Shown here in pieces: positions 947 to 24,890 of a DNA stretch of 64,000 bases. The DNA lies in NCBI RefSeq assembly GCF_012273515.2, contig NZ_CP050975.2, forward strand, positions 1,550,001 to 1,614,000, read 5' to 3'. This DNA comes from Streptomyces sp. RPA4-2. Lineage in GTDB: Bacteria > Actinomycetota > Actinomycetes > Streptomycetales > Streptomycetaceae. Every line of letters begins with the position of its first letter. Positions within the stretch are counted from its first letter, which is position 1. The translations under genes were made by a program, and so were the position numbers. The notes under the pieces were generated by a model, which saw only the letters and a program-made list of their open reading frames with translations, was not told the DNA's origin and made no database searches.

Positions 947-1915
947 GTGCTGAGCACCCTGGGGATCAGCGAGTTCGACGAACGGGTCTACCGCAGCTAT
1001 CTGACCAAGTCGGACCGGACGGCTGCCGAGATCGCCGAGAGCCTGGGCACCACGCCCAGCCGGGTCAGGCGCACGGTCTCCCGGTTGGCGGAGCTGGGCA
1101 TGCTGAGAAGGGAAGGGCACGGCCAGTACCGGCCGGTCAGCCCGCACACCGCGCTGAGGGCACTGCTCGCCAGACGCCGAGCCGAGACCGAGGCGGCGTT
1201 CACCGCGGTGTGGGGCACCGTCGACGACCTGGCGGACGAATACCGCGCCCGTCGGCTGCAGGAGGATCCGACCGGACTGGTGGAGGTGATCACCGGCGAG
1301 GCGGAGATCACACTGCGCGTCGCCGAGCTGATGCAGTCGGTCCGCACCCACTTCTGGGTCCTGGATCGACCCCCGTATCTCGGGCCCTACAGCACCGAGT
1401 TGGAGGAGGAGCTGACGATGGACCTGCTGGGCCGCGGGGTCGACATACGGTCGGTCTACACCCCGGAGGCGCTGGCGCAGCCGGAACGTTTCGAGCTGAT
1501 CACCCACCTGGCCCGGATCGGCGAGCAGGCCCGCATCCTGCCGGCCCTGCCGTTCAGACTGCGCATCATGGACCGACGCGTCGCGCTGGTCGCGCTGGTC
1601 CCGGGCCGCTACGACAGGATCGCCGTCGTCCACCGGTCGGGCCTGCTCGACGCACTCCTCGAGTTGTTCGACTCCTACTGGCAGCGTGGGCAGTCCCTCG
1701 TCGCGACCGCTCCGGCGACACCCGACGGGCCGAGCGCGCAGGACCTCCTGCTGCTGAAGATGATGCAGGCGGGTTACAAGGACCAGGCGATCGCCCGGCA
1801 GTTGGGGACGAGCGCGCGCACCGTGACCCGCCGCATCGCGGCGATCGCGACCGGGCTCGGCCTCGACACGCGCTTCCAGGTGGGGGCCGAGGCGGCCAAG
1901 AGGGGCTGGATCTAG
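947..1915 (+). CDS. HTH transcriptional regulator (TrmB-like N-terminus, LuxR-like C-terminal HTH)
   Basis: A 322-aa cytoplasmic regulator. Residues 1-65 form a winged-helix/TrmB-like domain (AAEIAESLGTTPSRVRRTVS, then LAELGMLRREG). Residues 75-230 are a regulatory region of the type seen in TrmB/PLD-like regulators. Residues 260-310 hold a second HTH (KDQAIARQLGTSARTVTRRI). The GTG start at 947 has a good GGGAGGT site at 935-941 with proper spacing. Regulators of this two-HTH form are often divergent from S8 peptidase genes in Streptomyces, so control of the neighbour at 1-700 is likely. The ligand is unknown. Confidence 0.75.
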   Translation: MLSTLGISEFDERVYRSYLTKSDRTAAEIAESLGTTPSRVRRTVSRLAELGMLRREGHGQYRPVSPHTALRALLARRRAETEAAFTAVWGTVDDLADEYRARRLQEDPTGLVEVITGEAEITLRVAELMQSVRTHFWVLDRPPYLGPYSTELEEELTMDLLGRGVDIRSVYTPEALAQPERFELITHLARIGEQARILPALPFRLRIMDRRVALVALVPGRYDRIAVVHRSGLLDALLELFDSYWQRGQSLVATAPATPDGPSAQDLLLLKMMQAGYKDQAIARQLGTSARTVTRRIAAIATGLGLDTRFQVGAEAAKRGWI

Positions 1916-2430
1916 GGGTATTGACCCGCAGTCGCCTGCTCACGCGCCGACTCCGGCAACCGACTCACCGCTCCCCTCCTCCTCGCTCGCCCACCCCGCC
2001 TCACGTCCGTCTCTACAGTGGAGAGAAAGAGGTCTGGCCGCGGGTAGGGGCACGGCGGCCGAGTGTTGGCGGCGGGATCGTCTTCGAGGACGGGGCCGGC
2101 CAGTCGATGACGCCGCCGCGCGGGTTCTGTCCGTCGTCCCGACGCATGTGCCATCGCGAGCCACCCAGGGCCGCCCAGCGGGAGCTTTGGGGACTCTGCC
2201 ACCGCCAAGAGCCCGACGGCGGGGACCGGATCACCTCCGTTCCGTTCGGCACAGCCCTGGACCGGCCGCGCGCAACACCGAGCCCGGGAAACACGAAGGA
2301 CTGACTGTTTCCGGGTCCCGATCGAGAATCCCCCGCCGGACTGCCACCCTGGAACCGCCGACAACCTCCACACGCTCACCCACGGCCCGTCCTACCGGGC
2401 GCTGAACCGGCACACACAGGGGGACGACGA
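1916..2430. other. 515-bp spacer without a supported gene
   Basis: Between the regulator and the ABC transporter I see no ORF with a ribosome site or protein-like codon bias. A 65-codon reading from 2107 to 2304 contains three cysteines but has no Shine-Dalgarno site. The spacer probably holds the terminator of the regulator gene and the promoter of the transporter operon; no clear hexamers were found. Confidence 0.4.
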
Positions 2431-4419
2431 GTGAAGAACTTCTTCGGGAAAGTCCGCCTGGCCGAGCCGCAGGTGTCCGACGCCGAGCGCGAACTGTTCG
2501 GCGGGCCGCTGCGCTATGACATGGGCTGGTCCCAACACGAGCACGCGGGGCTGGACTTGACCATGGGGTCGGCGCTTCGCCAGATGCCCACCCTCGTCGG
2601 TGCCACCCTGCGCATGGCGTGGCGCGCGGACCGCCGTGCGCTCGTCGCCGTGGCGATCAGCGAAATCGCCCAAGGCGTCGCCGCTGCAGTCAGCCTGCTC
2701 GCCGTCAACGCGGTCATGCACGCCCTGCTCGGCACCGGAAGCGCCGTCGAGCGGCTGCACGCGCTGCTGCCTGGACTGCTCGCCGCCGCAGGCGTCGCTG
2801 TCGTCAACTCCGCCCTGGCCGGCTGGTCGACCTCCCGGGCCGGTCGCCTCGAACCGCTGGTCGAGCGGATCGCCACCACGCAGTACCTGGCAGCGGCGAC
2901 CGCCGTCGAACTCGAAGCCATCGACGACCCGGACTTCCGTCGCCTGATCGACATCGCCCAGTACGGGCCGGCCTCCGCCCGCCGCATGATCGGTGCCTGT
3001 GTCTCGGCCCTGAACAGCACCATCTCGCTCGTCGCCACCGCCGGTGTCCTCACCGTCCTGCACCCTGCGCTGCTGCCCATGCTGCTGGCCATCGCGGCCC
3101 CCCGGGGCTGGGGCGCCATGCGGGTGGCCCAGGAACGCTACGTGTCGATGATGAGCTGGATCGAGCACCTGCGGGCCAGCCGCCTCATCGGCGGTCTCCT
3201 CACGGAGCGCACGGCGGCGCAGGAGGTCCGCATCCACGCGGTCGGGCCGTTTCTGCTCGACCGGTACGAGCGCATGGCCCACAGTGCCGAAGCCGAGCAG
3301 GAGCGGCTCGCCGCCGGCAAAGCCGTCACCGAGTGGGCCGCCTCCGCACTGTCGGGGCTGGCGATGGCCGCCACCTACGGCGTCATGATCTGGCTGATCG
3401 CGAGCGGACACATGAGTCTCGCGGTGGCCGGCACCGCGGTGATCGCCGTCCGATCGGGTTCCGCCAGCCTGGGCGCCCTGGTGATGAACGTGAACCAGTT
3501 GCACGAGGAATCCCTGTACGTCCGCGACCACGGACGCTTCCTGGAGGAGGCTGCCGAGCGGGCCATCCCCTCGGGCGGCGCGCCACTCCCGGAAAAGGTC
3601 GAGCGCATCGTCCTGGACCAGGTCACCTACCGTTACCCCGACCGCGAGAGCCCGGCGCTGGACAGCGTGTCGCTGACCCTCCCCATGGGGTCGGTCACCG
3701 CCGTGGTGGGCGAGAACGGCTCCGGCAAGAGCACTCTGATGAAGGTCCTTTCCGGGCTGTTGCTGCCCCAGGAAGGGACGGTCCGCTGGGACGAGGCCGA
3801 TGTCGCGGACCTGCAACGCACCCAGGTCTTCGACCGTGTCTCGCTGCTCACTCAGGACTTCCAGCGCTGGCCTGTGACCGCGGCGATGAACATCCGCATC
3901 GGCCGCCCGGACCACGACGCGCGCCCGGACGACTTACAGCCCTCCATCGACTACGCGGGAGCCGGCCCCGTCATCACCAAACTCACCAACGGACTCCAGA
4001 GCCTGCTGGCACGCGTCTTCCGGGGAGCCGTCGAGCTGTCCGGCGGCGAATGGCAGAAGATCGGCCTGGCCCGTACGCACTGGCGCAGTTCAACCTGCTC
4101 TGCGGACAGCATCCTCATCGTCGACGAACCCACCTCGGCCCTCGATCCGGAAGCCGAGATCGAAGCCTTCGACCGGATCCGCCGTCTCGCGGCTCCGAAC
4201 CGGGCCGTCGTCCTGGTCACCCACCGCATGTCCGGGGTCCGCCACGCGGACCGCATCTATGTCCTCAACCAAGGACATCTCGCCGAACACGGCACCCACG
4301 ACGAACTCATCGCCTCCCGCGGGCGGTACGCCGCCATGTTCGCCGCCCAAGCCGCCCAGTACGCACCCAGCGCCGCCATCCCGAACCCCACCTCGCCCAC
4401 CGTCGCGGATCACGCGTGA
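2431..4419 (+). CDS. ABC transporter, fused permease and ATP-binding protein
   Basis: A 662-aa half-transporter of the type I exporter class. Residues 50-340 contain the transmembrane domain, with hydrophobic helices such as the one around ISEIAQGVAAAVSLLAV. Residues 390-630 are the nucleotide-binding domain with Walker A GENGSGKST near 427-435, the ABC signature LSGGEWQK, Walker B ILIVDEPTSALD and the H-loop LVTHRMSG. The GTG start at 2431 follows a GGGGGA site. The protein probably works as a homodimer, since no second half-transporter is adjacent. It is followed by a degenerate gene and a methyltransferase-ASCH-NUDIX protein, which suggests export of a modified small molecule or peptide, but no precursor or core biosynthetic enzyme is visible. 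The substrate is unknown. Confidence 0.85.
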   Translation: MKNFFGKVRLAEPQVSDAERELFGGPLRYDMGWSQHEHAGLDLTMGSALRQMPTLVGATLRMAWRADRRALVAVAISEIAQGVAAAVSLLAVNAVMHALLGTGSAVERLHALLPGLLAAAGVAVVNSALAGWSTSRAGRLEPLVERIATTQYLAAATAVELEAIDDPDFRRLIDIAQYGPASARRMIGACVSALNSTISLVATAGVLTVLHPALLPMLLAIAAPRGWGAMRVAQERYVSMMSWIEHLRASRLIGGLLTERTAAQEVRIHAVGPFLLDRYERMAHSAEAEQERLAAGKAVTEWAASALSGLAMAATYGVMIWLIASGHMSLAVAGTAVIAVRSGSASLGALVMNVNQLHEESLYVRDHGRFLEEAAERAIPSGGAPLPEKVERIVLDQVTYRYPDRESPALDSVSLTLPMGSVTAVVGENGSGKSTLMKVLSGLLLPQEGTVRWDEADVADLQRTQVFDRVSLLTQDFQRWPVTAAMNIRIGRPDHDARPDDLQPSIDYAGAGPVITKLTNGLQSLLARVFRGAVELSGGEWQKIGLARTHWRSSTCSADSILIVDEPTSALDPEAEIEAFDRIRRLAAPNRAVVLVTHRMSGVRHADRIYVLNQGHLAEHGTHDELIASRGRYAAMFAAQAAQYAPSAAIPNPTSPTVADHA

Positions 4420-4442
4420 CCAGGCCGTTCGAAGGACCGGCC

Positions 4443-4724
4443 ATGACGACGCCTCCCACCGCCGACACCACCGGAACGAGCGCCCTGCGCCACCAGTTGA
4501 CCGACCAGCTCACCGCGGCCGGTCACATCCGCGCTATCGGCATCGCCGTCGCCGTCGAGCACGCCTTCCGCACCGTTCGACGCCCTCGCCCTGAACCGGA
4601 CCGGTGCACCGAGTGGCGCTGGTGGCCGCTCGACGCGCTGCCCGAACCGACCGTGGGTCACACCGGAGTCGCCTTGGAGGCGATCCCTTTCGGCACGCGC
4701 TGCACCGCAATGGGCTGGACCTGA
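4443..4724 (+). pseudogene. Short chimeric ORF: methyltransferase-like start joined to a NUDIX-like C-terminus
   Basis: A 93-codon frame with a plausible GAAGGA ribosome site. Its first 45 residues (LRHQLTDQLTAAGHIR, then VEHAFRTV) resemble the N-terminus of protein-L-isoaspartate-type methyltransferases such as those found in FxLD peptide clusters. Its last 43 residues (EWRWWPLDALPEP, then a final MGW) resemble the C-terminal part of NUDIX hydrolases of the kind that recognise nucleoside diphosphates. Neither catalytic core is present: there is no SAM-binding glycine loop and no NUDIX box. The simplest reading is an internal deletion that fused two former neighbouring genes and left a relic. 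An expressed small protein cannot be excluded. Confidence 0.45.
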
Positions 4725-4778
4725 CACCGCTCCGTCCGCTGTCCCCTCAAGCCTGCCGTCTCCCGGGAAGGACGTGCC

Positions 4779-6284
4779 GTGCACATGTTCGCCACGCAAG
4801 ACGAATGGGACCGTAGCTACGCCGACGGTCGCCGTTTCAGCCCACTCAGTGACCGTGAGCGGTCGCTGCTGGCCACGCACGCGCCTCCGCCGGCCGATGC
4901 CAGGGCCCTCGACATCGGCTGCGGAGTCGGTGAACTCGCGGCCCACTTGTCCACGCTGGGCTACGCCGTGGACGCCGTCGACTGGTCCGAGACCGCACTG
5001 GCCGAAGCCGCCGCCGAACACGGCACGGCCGTCCGGTGGCTACGCCTCGACATCGAGAGCGACGACGGGACACCACTGCACGCCGACGGCTACGACCTCA
5101 TCACCCTCCGGTTCGTGGTTCCGTTACTCAACTCCCGCGCCCGGACCCTGCACGCCCTGGGCCGACGCCTGCGCCCCGGAGGCGCCATCGTGGTCGTCAC
5201 ACCGCACGCCGCCGACACCCCGGCCGAGCGGCGTCGCCTCGCGCTCGACGAGGACGAACTCGCCGAGCTGCGGACCGACTGGGCGAGCACGACGCTGCAC
5301 GACGCCGGAGGCCTGGCCTTCGTGATCCTGCGTGACCCGTGCCGGACCGGCACGACCACGCCGCGGGACATTCCCAGGGCGGCCGGAACACAGGGCACGC
5401 CATCAGGCACGGGGAGCGTCGAACACACGGCGGCCGCCTCCCCGCGGCAGCATCGCTTCCCTCTCCTGGGGCGCTACTACCGCCAGGTCGAGTCCGGTCG
5501 GAAGACGGTCGAGGTGCGCGTCGCCACCCCTGACAAGGCAGCCGTCGAAGCCGGGGACGCGATCATCTTCCACGACGAGGACAGCGGTCGGGAACTCGAC
5601 ATCGTGGTGAAGCGGGCCACCCCGTACACCTCCTTCGAGGAACTCCTCGAAACGGAGGACCCGTCACGCATCGACCCGGACACGCCTCGCGGAGAACTGC
5701 TCATCAGGCTCCGCGGCATCTACCCGCCGGGCAAGGAAGCGCTCGGCCCGCTGGCCTTCGAGTTCGACCACCGCCCGGCGCTCCCCGGCCGCTCCATGCC
5801 GATGACGGCGTCGGAGTACGTACAGACCGTGCCCCACCACACGGTGTACGCCTGCCTGTACGTCCGCGACGAGCACGACCGACCCGTACAACTGCGCTCC
5901 GTCCACGGGTCCCGGCTCTGGCATTTCCCGGGCGGCAATCTCGACACGCGAGGGGAAGAACCTCTGCAGACCGCCCGCCGCGAAGCCGTCGAGGAAACGG
6001 GACTCGAACTCGGCTTGGAAGCCCCGAGGCTGCTCCTGACACATTTCCTGCACGCCGGGCCACCGCCGGCGCTGAACAAGGTCGGGTTCGTCTTCGACGG
6101 AGGGCGCCTCACCTCCGACCGGCTCCGCCGCATTCGTCTCGATCCCGCGGAGCACGACATGTGGGCCGTCCACGACCTCGCGGGGTGGCGGCAGTTGATG
6201 GCACCAGGGGCCTTCGCCCGTCTCGACGCCGTCGAACGGACCCGGCTCGGCGAAGGCCCCGCCTACCTCGTCACGCACACCTGA
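4779..6284 (+). CDS. Trifunctional fusion: SAM methyltransferase, ASCH domain, NUDIX hydrolase
   Basis: A 501-aa protein with three modules. Residues 1-185 are a class I SAM-dependent methyltransferase with motif I LDIGCGVGEL (44-53), motif II DAVDWSE and a post-motif region LRPGGAIVVVTPH. Residues 225-325 are an ASCH domain (LLGRYYRQVESGRKTVEVRV), a PUA-like fold linked to RNA or modified-nucleotide binding. Residues 345-495 are a NUDIX domain with the signature GGNLDTRGEEP followed by REAVEETGL; the glycine-to-glutamate spacing is one residue longer than the canonical box. The GTG start at 4779 has a GGGAAGGA site; an ATG two codons later is the alternative. Two-domain methyltransferase-NUDIX proteins are known in actinomycetes; the ASCH insert suggests a nucleotide or RNA-linked substrate. 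The reaction is unknown. Confidence 0.8.
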   Translation: MHMFATQDEWDRSYADGRRFSPLSDRERSLLATHAPPPADARALDIGCGVGELAAHLSTLGYAVDAVDWSETALAEAAAEHGTAVRWLRLDIESDDGTPLHADGYDLITLRFVVPLLNSRARTLHALGRRLRPGGAIVVVTPHAADTPAERRRLALDEDELAELRTDWASTTLHDAGGLAFVILRDPCRTGTTTPRDIPRAAGTQGTPSGTGSVEHTAAASPRQHRFPLLGRYYRQVESGRKTVEVRVATPDKAAVEAGDAIIFHDEDSGRELDIVVKRATPYTSFEELLETEDPSRIDPDTPRGELLIRLRGIYPPGKEALGPLAFEFDHRPALPGRSMPMTASEYVQTVPHHTVYACLYVRDEHDRPVQLRSVHGSRLWHFPGGNLDTRGEEPLQTARREAVEETGLELGLEAPRLLLTHFLHAGPPPALNKVGFVFDGGRLTSDRLRRIRLDPAEHDMWAVHDLAGWRQLMAPGAFARLDAVERTRLGEGPAYLVTHT

Positions 6285-6425
6285 CCCCGTCACGCCGCGT
6301 CCCGAGGAGACGCCCGTGCCCGTCGACGACATCAACAGCCGAGCCTCGGCCGTCACGACGCGCGCGTCACCGCAGCCGCCCGTCCGGCGCCCCTCGTCCG
6401 TCCGCCGTCAAGAACGCGGAGCCGT

Positions 6426-6672: not shown

Positions 6673-7626
6673 TCAAAGGTCGAGGACAAGACGCGTGCCT
6701 TTCGTGCCGGAACAGCAGATCATCATGGTGTCTCCGGCGGCCCGTTCCTCCGCTGACAGCACCGTGTCGCGGTGCTCCGGTTCGCCCGCGAGCACACGGG
6801 TGCGGCAGGAGCCACAGATTCCCTCCATGCAGGAGAAGTCGACGTCGACGCCGGCGTCGAGCACCGCGTCAAGAATCGTTGCGCCAGGGGCGATTCCCAG
6901 GGCTTTCCCTGATCGCGCGAGTTCGACCGTGAAGCCCCCGTCGACGGCCGGTGGCAGGTCTCCACGGAACCGTTCCAGGTGCACGCGATCCGGGCCGAGC
7001 CCGCGGGTCGCCTCCTCGAAGTCGGCCAGCATCGAAGCCGGTCCGCAGCAGTAGAGGTGGGGTTCGCCGGAGGTGTCGGCCACCAAGGAGGCGATCTTGA
7101 GCGAGCGTGGCCCGTCCTCGTCGGCGAAATACGTCCGCAAGCCGCCGGCACCCGAGTCGGCGAGAGCGGACAACTCGGGGAGGAACGCGGCGGCGTGGCG
7201 TGAACGTGCCGCGTAGTGGACCTCCCACGGCGCCTCGAGCTGTGTCAGCCGGCGTGCCATGCTCAGGATCGGCGTGATGCCGATACCGCCGGCGATCAGA
7301 ACGCTGTGCGGGGCGGATTCCATGAGCCTGAAACCGCCGGCCGGTTCGCTGATCACGAGGCGGGAGCCGGTGTGGACGGACTCGTGGACAGCACGGGACC
7401 CTCCTCTGCTTTCCGGGTCGAGTGCCACCGCGATGCGATAGGACGACGGGTCCCGTTCGGGGGTGCCGACCAGTGAGTAACTGCGCGTCAGTCCAGGGGC
7501 CAGCGTGACGTCGATGTGGTCGCCCGCGCCGAACCCCGGCAGCGGGATGCCGTCGGCGGGGCCGAGTTCGAGCAAGCGCACTGATTCGGCTGCCCGGACC
7601 GTGTTCCGGACGAAGGTCTCGATCAT
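6673..7626 (-). CDS. Phthalate-dioxygenase-type reductase (FMN, NAD, plant-type 2Fe-2S)
   Basis: A 317-aa electron-transfer partner for the Rieske oxygenase encoded just upstream. It has the class IA order: flavin domain with RSYSLVGTP near residue 60, NAD-binding domain with IAGGIGITPILSM, and a C-terminal [2Fe-2S] ferredoxin domain with CMEGICGSC and a distal cysteine (MMICCS). It takes electrons from NAD(P)H and passes them singly to the oxygenase. Its ATG overlaps the oxygenase stop as ATGA (7623-7626), so translation is coupled. VanB-type reductases have the same domain order. Confidence 0.92.
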   Translation of the reverse strand: MIETFVRNTVRAAESVRLLELGPADGIPLPGFGAGDHIDVTLAPGLTRSYSLVGTPERDPSSYRIAVALDPESRGGSRAVHESVHTGSRLVISEPAGGFRLMESAPHSVLIAGGIGITPILSMARRLTQLEAPWEVHYAARSRHAAAFLPELSALADSGAGGLRTYFADEDGPRSLKIASLVADTSGEPHLYCCGPASMLADFEEATRGLGPDRVHLERFRGDLPPAVDGGFTVELARSGKALGIAPGATILDAVLDAGVDVDFSCMEGICGSCRTRVLAGEPEHRDTVLSAEERAAGDTMMICCSGTKGTRLVLDL

Positions 7627-8930
7627 GGGCGCGCCTTGTCCGTCATAGCGGTTCGGCCGGTCCGCAGGTTGCCCGGCACCAGGTCCTGCCAGCGGTCGTC
7701 CTGGGCGATCACGGTGTCCGGCAGCGACCGTACGTCGGCGAGGTCGAGGCCGTGGGCGATCGGAGCCTCGCCTTCCTCGTGGCGGCGGACCGATTCGAGC
7801 AGGCGGGCGCGGAGGTGGATCACCGCCCGGTCGGCGGCCACCATGTGTTCCCTGGTGCGGTCGAGGATCGGGCCCATGCTCATCGCGAGGACGGCGTCCT
7901 CCTGTTCGATGCCGTCGAAGCCGGTCCAGTTGTCCTTCATCCGGGACCGGTCCTGCCCGAGCCGGTTCGCCCAGTCGGCGCGGAAGTCGCAGTCCTCGTC
8001 GTTCCAGAACGGTTCCTTGAGTCCCATGATCCGGATGATCTCCGCTCGGTCGATGGGCTTCGGGCCGTGCGCGATGATGTACGTGCTGGTGACCGTGTCG
8101 CTCTGCGGGACTTCGAACACGAAGAACTGGAAGGCCGGAGCGGGGATGATGCGGGTGACCGGCAGGATCGCCGGGGTGACGCGGATGCTGGTGGCCGGTC
8201 TGCCGTCCGCGGCGGGCGGCCCCTGCCTTTTTGCGACGTAGTGAAAACCGAACGCGGTGTCTTCGATGTCCAGCGTGGGGGCGTTGTCCCCGCTGGCCAG
8301 GGCGCCCGGGTTGAAGTCCTCGTCCTCGCGAGCGGTGAACTCGTCGTTCATCCACGCCGGGTTGGCCTGGTTGCTGTGCAGGATGCCGACGTGTGAGCTG
8401 TCGACGCCGCCCTCGAACAGCTGGAGGTAGTTGACGGGGGTGTTCAGCCGGATCACGGCCCCATGCTCGGAGGGCCCGTCCATGAACGCGTAGTGCGGGA
8501 ACTCCGGCTGCCGGCCTTTGGGGCCGATGTACGCCCAGACCAGTCCGCCGGCCTCGCGCACGAGGAAGGCCGGGGCCTTCATGCGCTCCCGGAAGCGCGC
8601 GTTGCAGTGGTTCGGGGTGTCCAGGATCGTACCGTCCGCACCGAATTTCCAGCCGTGGTAGAGGCAGCGGATACCGCCCTGTTCCACCCTGCCCAGGGCG
8701 AGCGACACACCACGGTGCATGCACAGCTCCTCGAGCACGCCCACCTGGCCGTCCGTGTCGCGGAACACCACGAACGGCTCACCGAGCAGGCTCATGCGCA
8801 GGGGGTCGCCGTCGGCTTCCGGTAGTTGCGCGGAGGTACAGATCGGAAGCCAGAACCGGCGCATCATCCGCCCCATCGGCGTCTGCGGTCCGACGCGGGT
8901 CAGGATCTCGTTTTCCTCGGCAGTCAGCAT
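7623..8930 (-). CDS. Rieske non-haem iron aromatic oxygenase, large subunit (phthalate-dioxygenase-like)
   Basis: A 435-aa oxygenase. The Rieske [2Fe-2S] ligands are C70, H72, C89 and H92 (CMHRG then CLYHGW). The catalytic mononuclear iron site follows the family motif NYLQLFEGGVDSSHVGILH near residues 155-175, which includes the bridging Asp and two His ligands. The length and the lack of a small beta subunit fit the phthalate 4,5-dioxygenase/vanillate demethylase group of homo-oligomeric enzymes. It forms an operon with its reductase and is divergent from a carboxylesterase, so an aromatic ester or ether substrate is plausible. Its promoter lies beside the 16-bp phased operator array at 8984-9032, suggesting control by the MarR protein encoded at 12519. 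Confidence 0.92.
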   Translation of the reverse strand: MLTAEENEILTRVGPQTPMGRMMRRFWLPICTSAQLPEADGDPLRMSLLGEPFVVFRDTDGQVGVLEELCMHRGVSLALGRVEQGGIRCLYHGWKFGADGTILDTPNHCNARFRERMKAPAFLVREAGGLVWAYIGPKGRQPEFPHYAFMDGPSEHGAVIRLNTPVNYLQLFEGGVDSSHVGILHSNQANPAWMNDEFTAREDEDFNPGALASGDNAPTLDIEDTAFGFHYVAKRQGPPAADGRPATSIRVTPAILPVTRIIPAPAFQFFVFEVPQSDTVTSTYIIAHGPKPIDRAEIIRIMGLKEPFWNDEDCDFRADWANRLGQDRSRMKDNWTGFDGIEQEDAVLAMSMGPILDRTREHMVAADRAVIHLRARLLESVRRHEEGEAPIAHGLDLADVRSLPDTVIAQDDRWQDLVPGNLRTGRTAMTDKARP

Positions 8931-16459: not shown

Positions 16460-17482
16460 CTATACGCGGTGTCCCCGGATCTCGGCACGGTCCCGGTAAC
16501 CGCAACAGAGGACGTGCCGCTGGCGCCGGTGGTCCGTCGTGGCGGCTGTCGTGCCGGCTGGAGCGCGGTGCGCGGCACACAGCACACGCTTGGCGCCGTC
16601 GACCATCTCGTCGCTGTCGGACGCGGCGTCGGCCAGACTCACGAAGCACAGGGTCAGCAGCAGTGCGCCCGCCACGAAGGGCAGCGTCCGGCGCGGGGGA
16701 GGCGGGGCCAGCAGGGCCCGTACCCGCTGGGGAACGACCCCGCCGGTCGCCGCCAGGACGCTGGGGCGTGACACGCCGGCGGACGCCAGGGCGGCTCGCC
16801 CGACGGCGCGGGCGACGACCGCGCGGTCGCCGACCTGCGCGGCGGCCTCCTCGTCCGCCCAGCGTTCCAGCACGAACGCGCCGGCGTCGGCCAGGGGCCG
16901 CAGCAGCGGGTTCACCGCCGCCGTGAGCCGCCAGAGGGTCAGGAAGCGGTGGTGCCCGGCGTTCAAATGCGCCCGCTCGTGCGCCAGTAGGGCGCTGCGT
17001 TCGTGGTCGTCGAGGCACCGCAGCATGCCTCGGGACACCACGATCCGTCCGGGCGTACCCTCCAGCGCGAACGCCAGCGGTGCGTCGTCGTCGAGGACGG
17101 CCAGCTCGGTGTCCCCGGGCAGCCGGGCGCACTCCCGCCGGGCCCGGGCGACCTGGCGGACGTGCCGGAGGGCGGCCGCGGCCAACCGTACGAGGCTCAC
17201 GGCCAGGAGCAGCGCACCGCCCGCCGCGACGGTGAGGTGCACCGGATCCTCCGCCCGCAGCGCCCGAACCGACCAGTGGCCCTCGGCGGCGACCTGGGGT
17301 ATCTGCGCGATGCCGGTGAAGGCCAGGAGCGCCAGCGATCCCGTCCATCCGGCCGCCGTGACGAGCGCGGCGCAGGCCAGGGCCCATGCTGCGGGGCGCG
17401 GGGCCAGCCGCCGCGCCAGACGCGGCGCCGGCACCGTGAGCAGGGCGGATACGAGGAACGGAACGTAGACGCTGATCCGCAC
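16460..17482 (-). CDS. M56-family (BlaR1/MecR1-like) membrane metallopeptidase
   Basis: A 340-aa membrane protein. Hydrophobic helices at about 5-20, 32-60 and 85-105 precede the zinc motif H168-E-R-A-H172 (LLAHERAHLNAGHH) and a downstream ERWADEEAAA, with a final helix near residue 275 (LPFVAGALLLTLCFVSL). BlaR1-type proteases cleave the BlaI-type repressor when they sense cell-wall stress; this protein lacks a large penicillin-binding sensor domain. The GTG start is 4 nt after the BlaI-like gene stop. The tail is basic and contains a CC pair of unknown role. Confidence 0.88.
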   Translation of the reverse strand: MRISVYVPFLVSALLTVPAPRLARRLAPRPAAWALACAALVTAAGWTGSLALLAFTGIAQIPQVAAEGHWSVRALRAEDPVHLTVAAGGALLLAVSLVRLAAAALRHVRQVARARRECARLPGDTELAVLDDDAPLAFALEGTPGRIVVSRGMLRCLDDHERSALLAHERAHLNAGHHRFLTLWRLTAAVNPLLRPLADAGAFVLERWADEEAAAQVGDRAVVARAVGRAALASAGVSRPSVLAATGGVVPQRVRALLAPPPPRRTLPFVAGALLLTLCFVSLADAASDSDEMVDGAKRVLCAAHRAPAGTTAATTDHRRQRHVLCCGYRDRAEIRGHRV

Positions 17483-17486
17483 CGGC

Positions 17487-17912
17487 TCAGGGCCTTCCGT
17501 CGGACGTCTCGTCGCCGCCGCGCGCCTCGTGCTCGGACAGCAGGCTGTGCAGCAATTCCTCGTCCTGTTCGGACAGTTCGGAGACGAAGCGGGTCAGCAC
17601 CGCCTCGCGGTCCGGTCCGCCCTCCAGGAGCGACCGCATGCGCCGGGCGGTGTGCGAGGCCTCGTCCCGAGCCGGCGTGTACGCGTATCCCCGTCCCTCT
17701 CGGTGCCGGACCAGCATGCCCTTGCCGTGGAGACGGGTCAGGATCGTCAGAACCGTGGTGTAGGCCAGGCCGGCGGCCAGACGCTCCCGTACCTGACGAG
17801 CGGTCATCGGGCCGTCCGCGGACCAGAGCGCGGCGAGTACGTCGCTCTCCAGCTCGCCGCGGGCCCGTCTGCCGGATCCGCCAGGGGGTTCCTGTCCCCT
17901 CTGTTCGCTCAC
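17487..17912 (-). CDS. BlaI/MecI/CopY-family transcriptional repressor
   Basis: A 141-aa repressor. The winged helix spans residues 20-95 (ELESDVLAALW, MTARQVRERL, TTVLTILTRLHGKGMLVRH), followed by a C-terminal dimerisation helix pair (FVSELSEQDEELLHSLL). The GTG at 17912 has a GGAGGT site; a longer reading to 18026 crosses the operators and was rejected. BlaI proteins bind CTACA/TGTAG-type dyads, which are present just upstream at 17957 and 18005, so it likely represses itself and the divergent glycosyltransferase operon and is inactivated by the M56 protease. Confidence 0.9.
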   Translation of the reverse strand: MSEQRGQEPPGGSGRRARGELESDVLAALWSADGPMTARQVRERLAAGLAYTTVLTILTRLHGKGMLVRHREGRGYAYTPARDEASHTARRMRSLLEGGPDREAVLTRFVSELSEQDEELLHSLLSEHEARGGDETSDGRP

Positions 17913-17956
17913 GGTCCACCTCCCGCTCCCGCGTTCCGGACAGACTACCCGGCGAT

Positions 17957-17975
17957 CTCCTACTAAACGTAGGAG
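17957..17975. promoter_or_regulatory. Candidate BlaI operator 1
   Basis: CTCCTAC-TAAAC-GTAGGAG is a perfect inverted repeat with 7-bp arms, 45 bp upstream of the BlaI-like gene. The core CTAC/GTAG matches the general BlaI dyad. Confidence 0.6.
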
Positions 17976-18004
17976 GTATGCTCCGGGCTTCAAAGCGTGA
18001 ACTA

Positions 18005-18017
18005 CTACATGTTGTAG
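18005..18017. promoter_or_regulatory. Candidate BlaI operator 2
   Basis: CTACA-TGT-TGTAG is a perfect inverted repeat close to the mycobacterial and staphylococcal BlaI consensus (TACA and TGTA half-sites). It lies 35 bp before the glycosyltransferase start, where it would block the promoter. Confidence 0.65.
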
Positions 18018-18052
18018 ATCCCGCATGCCCTCTGACGGTGGAGGAACAGCCC

Positions 18053-23195: not shown

Positions 23196-24143
23196 TCAGC
23201 CTCCTCGAACGGCGACGGCCGCGTACTCCACGTACTCGTGCAGCCCGTAGGCCGGCGCGAGTGCCGCCAGCGCCAGAGCGGCCGCAGTCGTCGCCAGACC
23301 CAGGGCACCCGCCTGCCGGGCTCCCCCCTGCGGTGCCGCGGGCGCCGGCCTGAGCAGCGCTTCGACCCGCCGGGGCACCGGCCCGGTCGTCACCGACAGC
23401 AGCGGATACCCGCCACCGGTACGCCGCTTCTGCGACGCTCCGGCCAGGGCCGCCCGGGCGATGGCCGCCGCCGCCACCTTCCGGTCACCGACGGCGGCCG
23501 CCGCCGATTCGTCCGCCCATCGCTCGAGGTGGAACCCCAGCGACTCCCGCAGGCTCCGCGCCGCGGGGTGAACGGTCGTGGACAGGTCGACCACGGCGGA
23601 CAGCAGGTGATGGCGGCCGGACAGGTGGGCGCGCTCGTGGGCCAGCAGTACCTCGCGCTCCGTGGCCCTCAGGGCCCGCATCATGCCGGAGGTCACCACG
23701 ATCCGGCCGCCGCGGCCTTGGTAGCCGGGCAGCGCGAAGGCGTCCACCTCGCTGCCCGGCACCACCAGCAGGTCCCCGGCGCCCGTCCCCTCGGCGGCCG
23801 ATCGCCAGGCGCGCCTGAGCAGCGAACGGTGCTGGAACCACCGCCGCACCAGCAGCACCAGCTGGACGAGCATGACCGCGCCGGCCACGCAGGCCATCGG
23901 CACCGCGGCCGGCCACACCTCCAGCACACGCGCGAGCGGCACCTGCTCAAGTGCCGCGAGGAAGGGCACGTGGAACAGGCCGGTCAGTGCCGCGATCGTG
24001 CCGCAGGCCATGAGGACCGCCGCGGCCGTCAGCGTCCAGCACGCCTCCCGGGGCGGGAGAACACCGGCCAGACGGCGGGCCGCCACGGAGGCGCCCCACG
24101 GAAAAGCGAGGCCCAGCACGACCAGGGCCAGTACGTAGGTCAC
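23196..24143 (-). CDS. M56-family membrane metallopeptidase (second copy)
   Basis: A 315-aa membrane protease with helices at about 2-18, 38-60 and 78-100. The zinc motif is H169-E-R-A-H173 (LLAHERAHLSGRHH), followed by ERWADESAAA. It parallels the protein at 16460 but is clearly diverged. The GTG at 24143 overlaps the stop of the BlaI-like gene as GTGA, so the pair is co-translated. The likely role is signal-induced cleavage of the adjacent repressor. Confidence 0.88.
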   Translation of the reverse strand: MTYVLALVVLGLAFPWGASVAARRLAGVLPPREACWTLTAAAVLMACGTIAALTGLFHVPFLAALEQVPLARVLEVWPAAVPMACVAGAVMLVQLVLLVRRWFQHRSLLRRAWRSAAEGTGAGDLLVVPGSEVDAFALPGYQGRGGRIVVTSGMMRALRATEREVLLAHERAHLSGRHHLLSAVVDLSTTVHPAARSLRESLGFHLERWADESAAAAVGDRKVAAAAIARAALAGASQKRRTGGGYPLLSVTTGPVPRRVEALLRPAPAAPQGGARQAGALGLATTAAALALAALAPAYGLHEYVEYAAVAVRGG

Positions 24144-24523
24144 TCGGAGCCGTCCTCGGCTTCGAGGAGCAGGCACCGCAACGTGTCCTCGTCGCTCTCG
24201 GACAGGGGGGACACGAAGCGCCTCAGCGCCAGGTCACGACGGGGCTCACTCTCCAGCTCGCGACGCATGCGCCCGGCGACGAGCCCGGCCGCGTCCTGAG
24301 CCGGCTCGTGGGCGAAGCCACGGCCCGACGGGATCCGGCGCAACGTGCCCTTCTCGTGGAGCCGGGTCAGGATGGTGGCCATCGTCGGCCTCGCCGGCCC
24401 CCTGTCGAGCGCCGCGTCGACCTGCCGCGCTGTCATCGGCTCGCCGGCCTCCCACAGCGGGGCCGGCGCATCCGCGACGAGCCCGCCGTGCGGACGTCCC
24501 CCGTCCCGGCGCTTGTCCGACAT
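24140..24523 (-). CDS. BlaI/MecI/CopY-family repressor (second copy)
   Basis: A 127-aa repressor. The winged helix is recognisable from MTARQVDAALDRG and PTMATILTRLHEKGTLRRI, with the C-terminal helices FVSPLSESDEDTLRCLLLE. The first helix is atypical: VADAPAPLWEAGEP replaces the usual VMxxLW segment, so the N-terminal fold may be altered. The ATG at 24523 follows a GGAGAGGG site, and earlier in-frame ATGs exist at 24544 and 24586. No clear CTACA dyad was found upstream. Confidence 0.8.
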   Translation of the reverse strand: MSDKRRDGGRPHGGLVADAPAPLWEAGEPMTARQVDAALDRGPARPTMATILTRLHEKGTLRRIPSGRGFAHEPAQDAAGLVAGRMRRELESEPRRDLALRRFVSPLSESDEDTLRCLLLEAEDGSE

Positions 24524-24890
24524 CCCTCTCCCGTTCTCCGGCATCCTCGACCGGTGCGCCTCGCGCACCCGCCCCGCCGCGTCCACCTGAACCTGAGCCT
24601 GCGCGTTTCCAAGGATCGCCCAATCTACTGGTCGCGGTGTGAGACGCGTCCCGGCCGACGGCGTGGCCCACCCGGGTCCCGGGGCCTCGCGGGCGCCACC
24701 GCAACCCCCACCGCGGGGAGTTCACCGAACTGGTGCGTGCCCATGACGTGTGGCACGGAGTCGTTGCCGTGACGGCCACAACGGGTGGGGGCGTCGGCCG
24801 GTCGTACTCGGCGTACGGAAAAGCATCGGGCGGCCAGTGAGAACCGGGCCCCCGACGCCCACTCGACCGATGAAACGAACGGGGAACGAC
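24524..24890. other. Divergent spacer between the BlaI-like and SapA-like genes
   Basis: These 367 bp hold the promoters of both genes. I found no convincing palindrome, promoter pair or short gene in it. Confidence 0.35.

Follow-up and report, generated by a model that had tools for sequence, protein, structure and literature searches.

Why would one protein join a SAM methyltransferase (MT), an ASCH domain and a NUDIX hydrolase domain, and is the ABC exporter encoded just upstream a partner in the same task? We address these questions for a locus of Streptomyces sp. RPA4-2, within a stretch of 64,000 nucleotides (the window; contig NZ_CP050975.2, positions 1,550,001 to 1,614,000), using coordinates that count from the first letter of that stretch.

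An intact three-domain protein

A sequence-only reading of the window had proposed the three domains, and the family matches (PF00293, PF04266-type and Methyltransf) agree with it. Positions 4785-6284 are an intact MT-ASCH-NUDIX coding region, laid out as follows.

4785..6284, + strand: MT-ASCH-NUDIX fusion protein, 499 aa from the ATG at 4785 or 501 aa from the GTG at 4779
4878..5249, + strand: SAM methyltransferase domain, residues 34-157 of 501, with motif I DIGCGVGE
5445..5777, + strand: ASCH domain, residues 223-333, with the stretch GRKTVEVR at 5496-5519
5841..6173, + strand: NUDIX domain, residues 355-465 (PF00293, E 9e-10, 39.1 bits)
5931-6005, + strand: NUDIX box, GGNLDTRGEEPLQTARREAVEETGL

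The first domain belongs to the class I SAM methyltransferases, with both a Methyltransf family match and the glycine-rich motif I, and the last domain combines a PF00293 match over the cut-off with the REuxEE catalytic stretch. The ASCH similarity claimed for the middle region is borne out under PF04266 (family model or fold): residues 223-333 resemble PDB entries 1xne and 2z0t by sequence, and 2z0t by fold as well. We take both entries to be small archaeal proteins of the ASCH family; they are stand-alone chains of 109-113 aa, whereas the ASCH domain of the window is part of a three-domain protein.

The structure model is confident for the MT and ASCH domains only, with pLDDT block means of 30-59 from residue 331 on, and its NUDIX half was left unused, the NUDIX assignment being made by sequence and not by fold. 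By sequence comparison, the closest NUDIX structures are ADP-ribose pyrophosphatases. In the fold comparison, the MT domain accounts for 49 of the 50 matches listed, which place it near toxin and metabolite methyltransferases such as 7bgg, plus many others. The TehB, thiopurine and heterocyclic-toxin class I methyltransferases share 13-22% identity with it and are one among very many equally close families. As modeled, the MT fold is shared across a very broad superfamily and says nothing definite about the substrate.

Across 24 aligned fusions, the invariant residues include D45, G47, C48, G49 and G51 of the MT motif, G240, R241 and K242 of the ASCH domain, and R401, E402, E405 and E406 of the NUDIX domain. 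The strict box GX5EX7REUXEEXGU is absent from the window fusion, which has one residue too many between G and E. The sequence-only reading had seen this residue and suspected altered activity from it; the residue is real, but the suspicion is unlikely to be right, with the four catalytic-stretch residues invariant. Because 14 of the 24 fusions carry the extra residue, and because, among 46 distinct predicted family members, the strict box is found in just 6 but REuxEEx in 45, it is a trait of the family and not a sign of damage. Pairwise dN/dS between the window fusion and nine other fusions is 0.28-0.46. Domain by domain, in five comparisons, pN/pS is 0.25-0.33 for NUDIX, which is lowest in four of the five, and 0.63-0.99 for the linker.

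Remnants of a longer operon

The fusion and the exporter are accompanied by three pieces of other genes.

2170..2407, + strand: NUDIX hydrolase gene remnant, its C-terminal half, split over two frames, with the NUDIX box missing
2431..4419, + strand: intact ABC exporter, TMD plus ATPase, 662 aa (PF00005, 83.9 bits)
4416..4724, + strand: deletion relic of an FxLD-system PCMT-NUDIX-NUDIX gene, an ORF from GTG 4416 or ATG 4443
6316..6345, + strand: 5′ end (~10 codons) of an otherwise lost MT-NUDIX gene, which in relatives comes after the fusion

By tblastn, the NUDIX remnant matches a 155-aa NUDIX protein of locus L045 (E 5e-16, in two frames) and a gene of locus L059 (E 3e-17), scoring 58-62 bits against a best of 22.7 bits for 100 random 640-base stretches of the window. 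The 155-aa gene is intact in L045, where it overlaps the ABC start. A peptide ending GPSYRALN.. ahead of the ABC gene was rejected as a precursor candidate, being the C-terminus of this upstream NUDIX gene (in the window, of its remains). Orthologues of the exporter, at 81-82% identity, adjoin the fusion in L038/L087 (identical sequences) and in L059.

Judged by its matches, the 93-aa ORF at 4443-4724 is no gene in its own right. Its residues 1-47 correspond to the N-terminus of the L059 protein (57%, E 2.5e-8) and residues 51-93 to the C-termini of the L059 (65%, E 2.6e-14) and L060 (70%, E 3.5e-16) proteins, the full-length counterparts being 722- and 716-aa proteins at the same place in L059 and L060. 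At the DNA level, the relic aligns to L059 on both flanks of the deletion. Its reading frame, open from GTG 4416, overlaps the ABC stop as the L059 gene does; the frame is that of the fusion, but the relic has its own stop. The full L059 gene encodes two NUDIX domains joined to an FxLD methyltransferase that scores 375 bits with TIGR04364 (cut-off 320). Downstream, window positions 6271-6406 align to L059 DNA with a score of 57, running through the fusion stop into the start of the next gene and then fading; the corresponding protein match (10 residues, E 0.12) is weak and too short to stand alone. Together, the relic and the DNA matches imply an ancestral operon with the order NUDIX / ABC / PCMT-NUDIX-NUDIX / MT-ASCH-NUDIX / MT-NUDIX, of whose five genes two, the ABC exporter and the MT-ASCH-NUDIX fusion, are intact in the window.

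Just past the operon break, at 6673-8930 on the - strand, a Rieske oxygenase whose C-terminus is of LigXa type is encoded together with its reductase, which has a 2Fe-2S domain; the two probably serve as an O-demethylase or a ring-hydroxylating system for aromatic compounds. Immediately before the NUDIX remnant, 947-1915 (+) encodes a TrmB-like regulator that carries a second helix-turn-helix at the C-terminal end.

The ASCH-NUDIX core of the family

The family was sampled by a search of 394 genomes, in 153 of which at least part of the protein has a match with an E of 1e-20 or lower, and of a second set of 395 relatives, 19 of which match at 1e-100 (own genome included). Only one protein, P0001 (99%), is a very close relative; P0002 (84%) comes next. 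ASCH-NUDIX proteins of 275-314 aa that lack the MT are common, and by sequence the ASCH-NUDIX pair is the constant core of the family.

We compared 112 ASCH-NUDIX regions (65 from fusions, 47 not) in a tree whose sampling was seeded from the window sequence and whose midpoint root is weakly supported (44). The fusion label changes six times on this tree, against a mean of 36 when labels are shuffled, and most non-fusions fall in one nested clade (39 rows, SH-aLRT 94). The simplest reading of these few changes and the nested clade is an ancestral fusion that later lost its MT. With the midpoint root only, and weak support for it, this is how the history looks. The sequence-only reading had seen the ASCH domain as inserted into an MT-NUDIX fusion; under the same root, the trees do not favor that order of events, and the common MT-less forms with their constant core also speak against it.

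The exporter as a frequent but inconstant neighbor

For the neighbor comparison we used 57 distinct ASCH places, drawn also from named genomes and comprising 10 fusions and 47 rows without the MT (L056 and L086 giving two rows each). An exporter was counted when an ABC gene lay upstream on the same strand within 10.5 kb; an ABC match at L131 (28-30%, downstream) was excluded. Four of the ten fusion loci have such a gene: the window, L087 and L059, where the three exporters are orthologous, and L039, where it is distant (37% identity). A downstream MT-NUDIX gene is more frequent (6/10). Among the 47 rows without the MT, the same 10.5-kb, same-strand count gives an ABC gene in 29, and the other neighbors are a VanX-like gene (30), triple NUDIX (31), double NUDIX (25), MT-NUDIX (28), an FxLD-type methyltransferase (27) and a P-loop kinase (23). 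VanX-like, P-loop kinase, APH kinase and MFS genes occur in the fuller cassettes. Seven of the 47 rows have none of the tested neighbors: L094, L077 (with only 3.4 kb upstream), L086 twice, L090, L092 and L095.

The link between exporter and fusion that the sequence-only reading drew is thus real but not constant. Since the ABC gene is missing within 10.5 kb upstream at 6/10 fusion loci, and since the tree requires 18 changes of the ABC label, strict coupling of the two is rejected. Nor is the pair always retained together, because in locus L096, left out of the 57-place tally, the ABC gene (83% identical) is still open whereas the neighboring fusion has been reduced to part of its NUDIX domain.

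NUDIX domains are plentiful in these cassettes: elsewhere the fusion partner is variously an MT, PCMT, ASCH or kinase domain, and L045 alone has eight REuxEE NUDIX stretches over five genes. As separate observations, a 637-aa protein of S. lydicus (P0007) carries a NUDIX piece with a REAKEETG box ahead of a whole MT-ASCH-NUDIX chain, a four-part fusion. The domain shuffles of the L093 and L049 cassettes (L093 6369-8747, L049 7928-10249 and L093 4993-6372) include MT-NUDIX-PCMT proteins as well as a NUDIX-APH kinase fusion, and the L049 MT is 53% identical to that of the window.

Lanthipeptide clusters in relatives

A survey of LanB and precursor genes covered 36 genomes, finding LanB in 26 and an FxLD precursor over the cut-off in 20. 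Thirteen genomes have LanB on one contig and strand with an MT-less ASCH-NUDIX gene, an ABC gene and NUDIX genes. In 12 of these 13 clusters the ASCH domain is preceded, at a distance of 11.7-14.9 kb, by a closely similar FxLD precursor (82-100% identity, tblastn); in L148, the one remaining cluster, an HMM search detected a precursor of another kind. The ABC gene sits between the precursor and LanB on one side and the downstream ASCH-NUDIX gene on the other. All 13 are FxLD-system class I lanthipeptide clusters, with precursor, LanB, LanB-C/PCMT, ABC and ASCH-NUDIX on one strand. The MT-less ASCH-NUDIX gene and its similar neighbors are the downstream half of isoaspartate-type class I lanthipeptide clusters in related Streptomycetaceae. 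Four of the 13 (L124, L142, L143 and L147) have a second, cassette-type FxLD PCMT, 75-78% identical to that of L059 and separate from the LanB-side one. The ASCH-NUDIX gene has an in-frame stop in two clusters that are otherwise full (L125 and L143), so it may be dispensable there.

The window genome has no TIGR04364 FxLD methyltransferase over the cut-off, only the deletion relic at 4416-4724, and no TIGR04363 FxLD precursor over the cut-off. LanB is not beside the window locus, the only PF04738 (LanB-like) matches in the genome being ~290 kb away. Lacking an FxLD precursor and an FxLD methyltransferase over the cut-off as well as an adjacent LanB, the window locus is not an FxLD-system cluster. 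At the ten fusion loci as a group, tblastn at E 1e-3 found no LanB, LanB C-domain or precursor (in 64 kb for the window and about 20 kb for the others). The cassette can also stand alone, because locus L045 (genome G285) has the full cassette order intact while LanB and precursor were not found in G285. A scan of short conserved ORFs at 35 loci gave no convincing precursor peptide near the cassette.

Two minor observations belong here. A stretch ending ..SRPDTRYLA, in one frame, lies upstream of the NUDIX and ABC genes at seven loci, of which three are L047 (about 2497-2800), L049 (about 1709) and L059 (about 5027); a promoter or leader region may explain it better than a peptide would. At L069, in S. 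olivaceus NRRL B-3009, the strain of the published OlvA work, the ASCH-NUDIX gene is on one contig; in genome G180, contig C63 is the same as that of L069, the fusion is on C36, and LanB and the precursor are on C9.

The 13 clusters share the FxLD precursor, LanB, elimination-domain-PCMT fusion and ABC gene with the LanSA class I lanthipeptides ('lanthimiditides', for example OlvA/OlvSA of S. olivaceus NRRL B-3009), whereas the window has none of the peptide genes. PMC7268733 describes proteins in which an elimination domain is fused to a PCMT, together with the class I families with an isoaspartate methyltransferase that are most common in actinobacteria; for one of these families it states that the mature product is unknown. 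According to that paper and PMC13001092, a review of aspartimide RiPPs, no additional enzyme occurs in class I lanthipeptide clusters more often than this type of methyltransferase. In the passages concerned, PMC12710340 and PMC9303977 bear on the FxLD motif only. By term count, 'nudix' is absent from the main text of PMC7268733, and both 'nudix' and 'asch' from that of PMC13001092; the open-licence literature searched by term yielded no description of a NUDIX/ASCH/MT cassette. Such a downstream cassette in a known type of RiPP cluster is apparently undescribed. The imiditides and pamtides, treated in part of PMC13001092 as PIMT-only RiPPs, resemble the LanB-less L045 in having a PIMT-type methyltransferase gene without LanB. 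They differ in that the 35-locus scan found no convincing precursor at the cassette loci, and the imiditide PIMT motif WxxxGxP given in that text occurs in 0 of 27 distinct predicted FxLD-type proteins (18 c5, 7 c17 and 2 c119).

Possible roles of the fusion

We tentatively favor, at a little short of an even chance, the reading in which the exporter and the fusion are the intact survivors of a decayed operon and the fusion is an accessory of a peptide pathway, most likely for self-protection or tailoring. The substrate would be a nucleotide-linked compound, or one activated in some other way: NUDIX would cleave its pyrophosphate, ASCH would hold its base or RNA part, and the MT would methylate the same or a neighboring group. 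The sequence-only reading had suggested that a single chain may recognise, methylate and hydrolyse a nucleotide-linked intermediate, and that the exporter may carry the product out of the cell; in this genome the genes around the pair have decayed. As an accessory, the protein could work in self-protection with the ABC pump, which in fuller copies would be joined by the VanX-like peptidase and the P-loop or APH kinases, or in tailoring. The strain would have kept pump and enzyme, with no FxLD methyltransferase or precursor over the cut-off, as an orphan protection pair would be kept. Self-protection appears slightly likelier than tailoring because the fuller cassettes also contain VanX-like, P-loop kinase, APH kinase and MFS genes and because the enzyme and the pump outlasted the peptide genes; these resistance-like families and the retention are what point to protection, and the decay of the operon may simply be unfinished. 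The patchy exporter linkage, the state of L096, the stops in two of the 13 clusters, the LanB-like gene ~290 kb away in the window genome, and the lack of LanB and precursor in the stretches searched at the fusion loci weigh against the favored reading. If the cassette belongs to the pathway, it names candidate enzymes for missing steps or for self-protection, and the window strain offers a natural experiment, having retained the pump and one three-domain enzyme without the peptide genes.

Tailoring proper would have the fusion act while the RiPP matures, modifying either the peptide itself or an activated donor by transferring a methyl group and removing a nucleotide group, with the ABC gene exporting the finished peptide. 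This account draws on the ASCH-NUDIX genes that share a strand with LanB, the elimination-domain PCMT and ABC in 13 clusters, 12 of them with the same kind of precursor, and on the second FxLD-type PCMT in the cassettes of four. We nevertheless consider it unlikely: the cassette exists without LanB and precursor in G285, all ten fusions are in loci of that kind, the window retains its fusion without any FxLD methyltransferase over the cut-off, and 2/13 clusters have a stop in the ASCH-NUDIX gene.

A still less probable account makes the fusion a general nucleotide house-cleaning gene that travels with the cassette by chance, so that its neighborhood is uninformative about its substrate. Patchy exporter adjacency, with its 18 changes on the tree, would fit this, as would the seven rows without any tested neighbor; the recurrence of ABC, triple NUDIX, VanX-like and FxLD-type methyltransferase genes, each in 27 to 31 of the 47 rows, does not.

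ASCH domains have a PUA-like fold of RNA-binding type, and LanB-dependent clusters use glutamyl-tRNA. Both facts lend some appeal to an RNA or tRNA role, in which RNA bound by ASCH would have a 5′ end or an adduct trimmed by NUDIX and would be modified by the MT; the cassette P-loop kinase also weakly matches Pnkp (E 4.9e-6). We give this role little credence, since LanB is absent from the fusion loci (64 kb in the window, about 20 kb elsewhere) and the NUDIX domain comes closest in sequence to structures of ADP-ribose pyrophosphatases.

More speculative again, and to be doubted as it stands, is the idea that the NUDIX-rich cassette represents an undescribed module for making or disarming an aspartimide-type lanthipeptide in nucleotide-linked form, with the exporter and fusion of the window as its minimal orphan protection pair. 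A role in anti-phage defence is rejected, since what PADLOC matched among 10 proteins (mad2, mad3, PDC-S07 and others) appears to reflect no more than general methyltransferase, ATPase and NUDIX similarity.

Elsewhere in the window, on the - strand, a gene pair occurs in two copies (16460-18026 and 23196-24586) that cluster together and with L064; by eye, the pair is presumably a membrane peptidase and a BlaI-like regulator.
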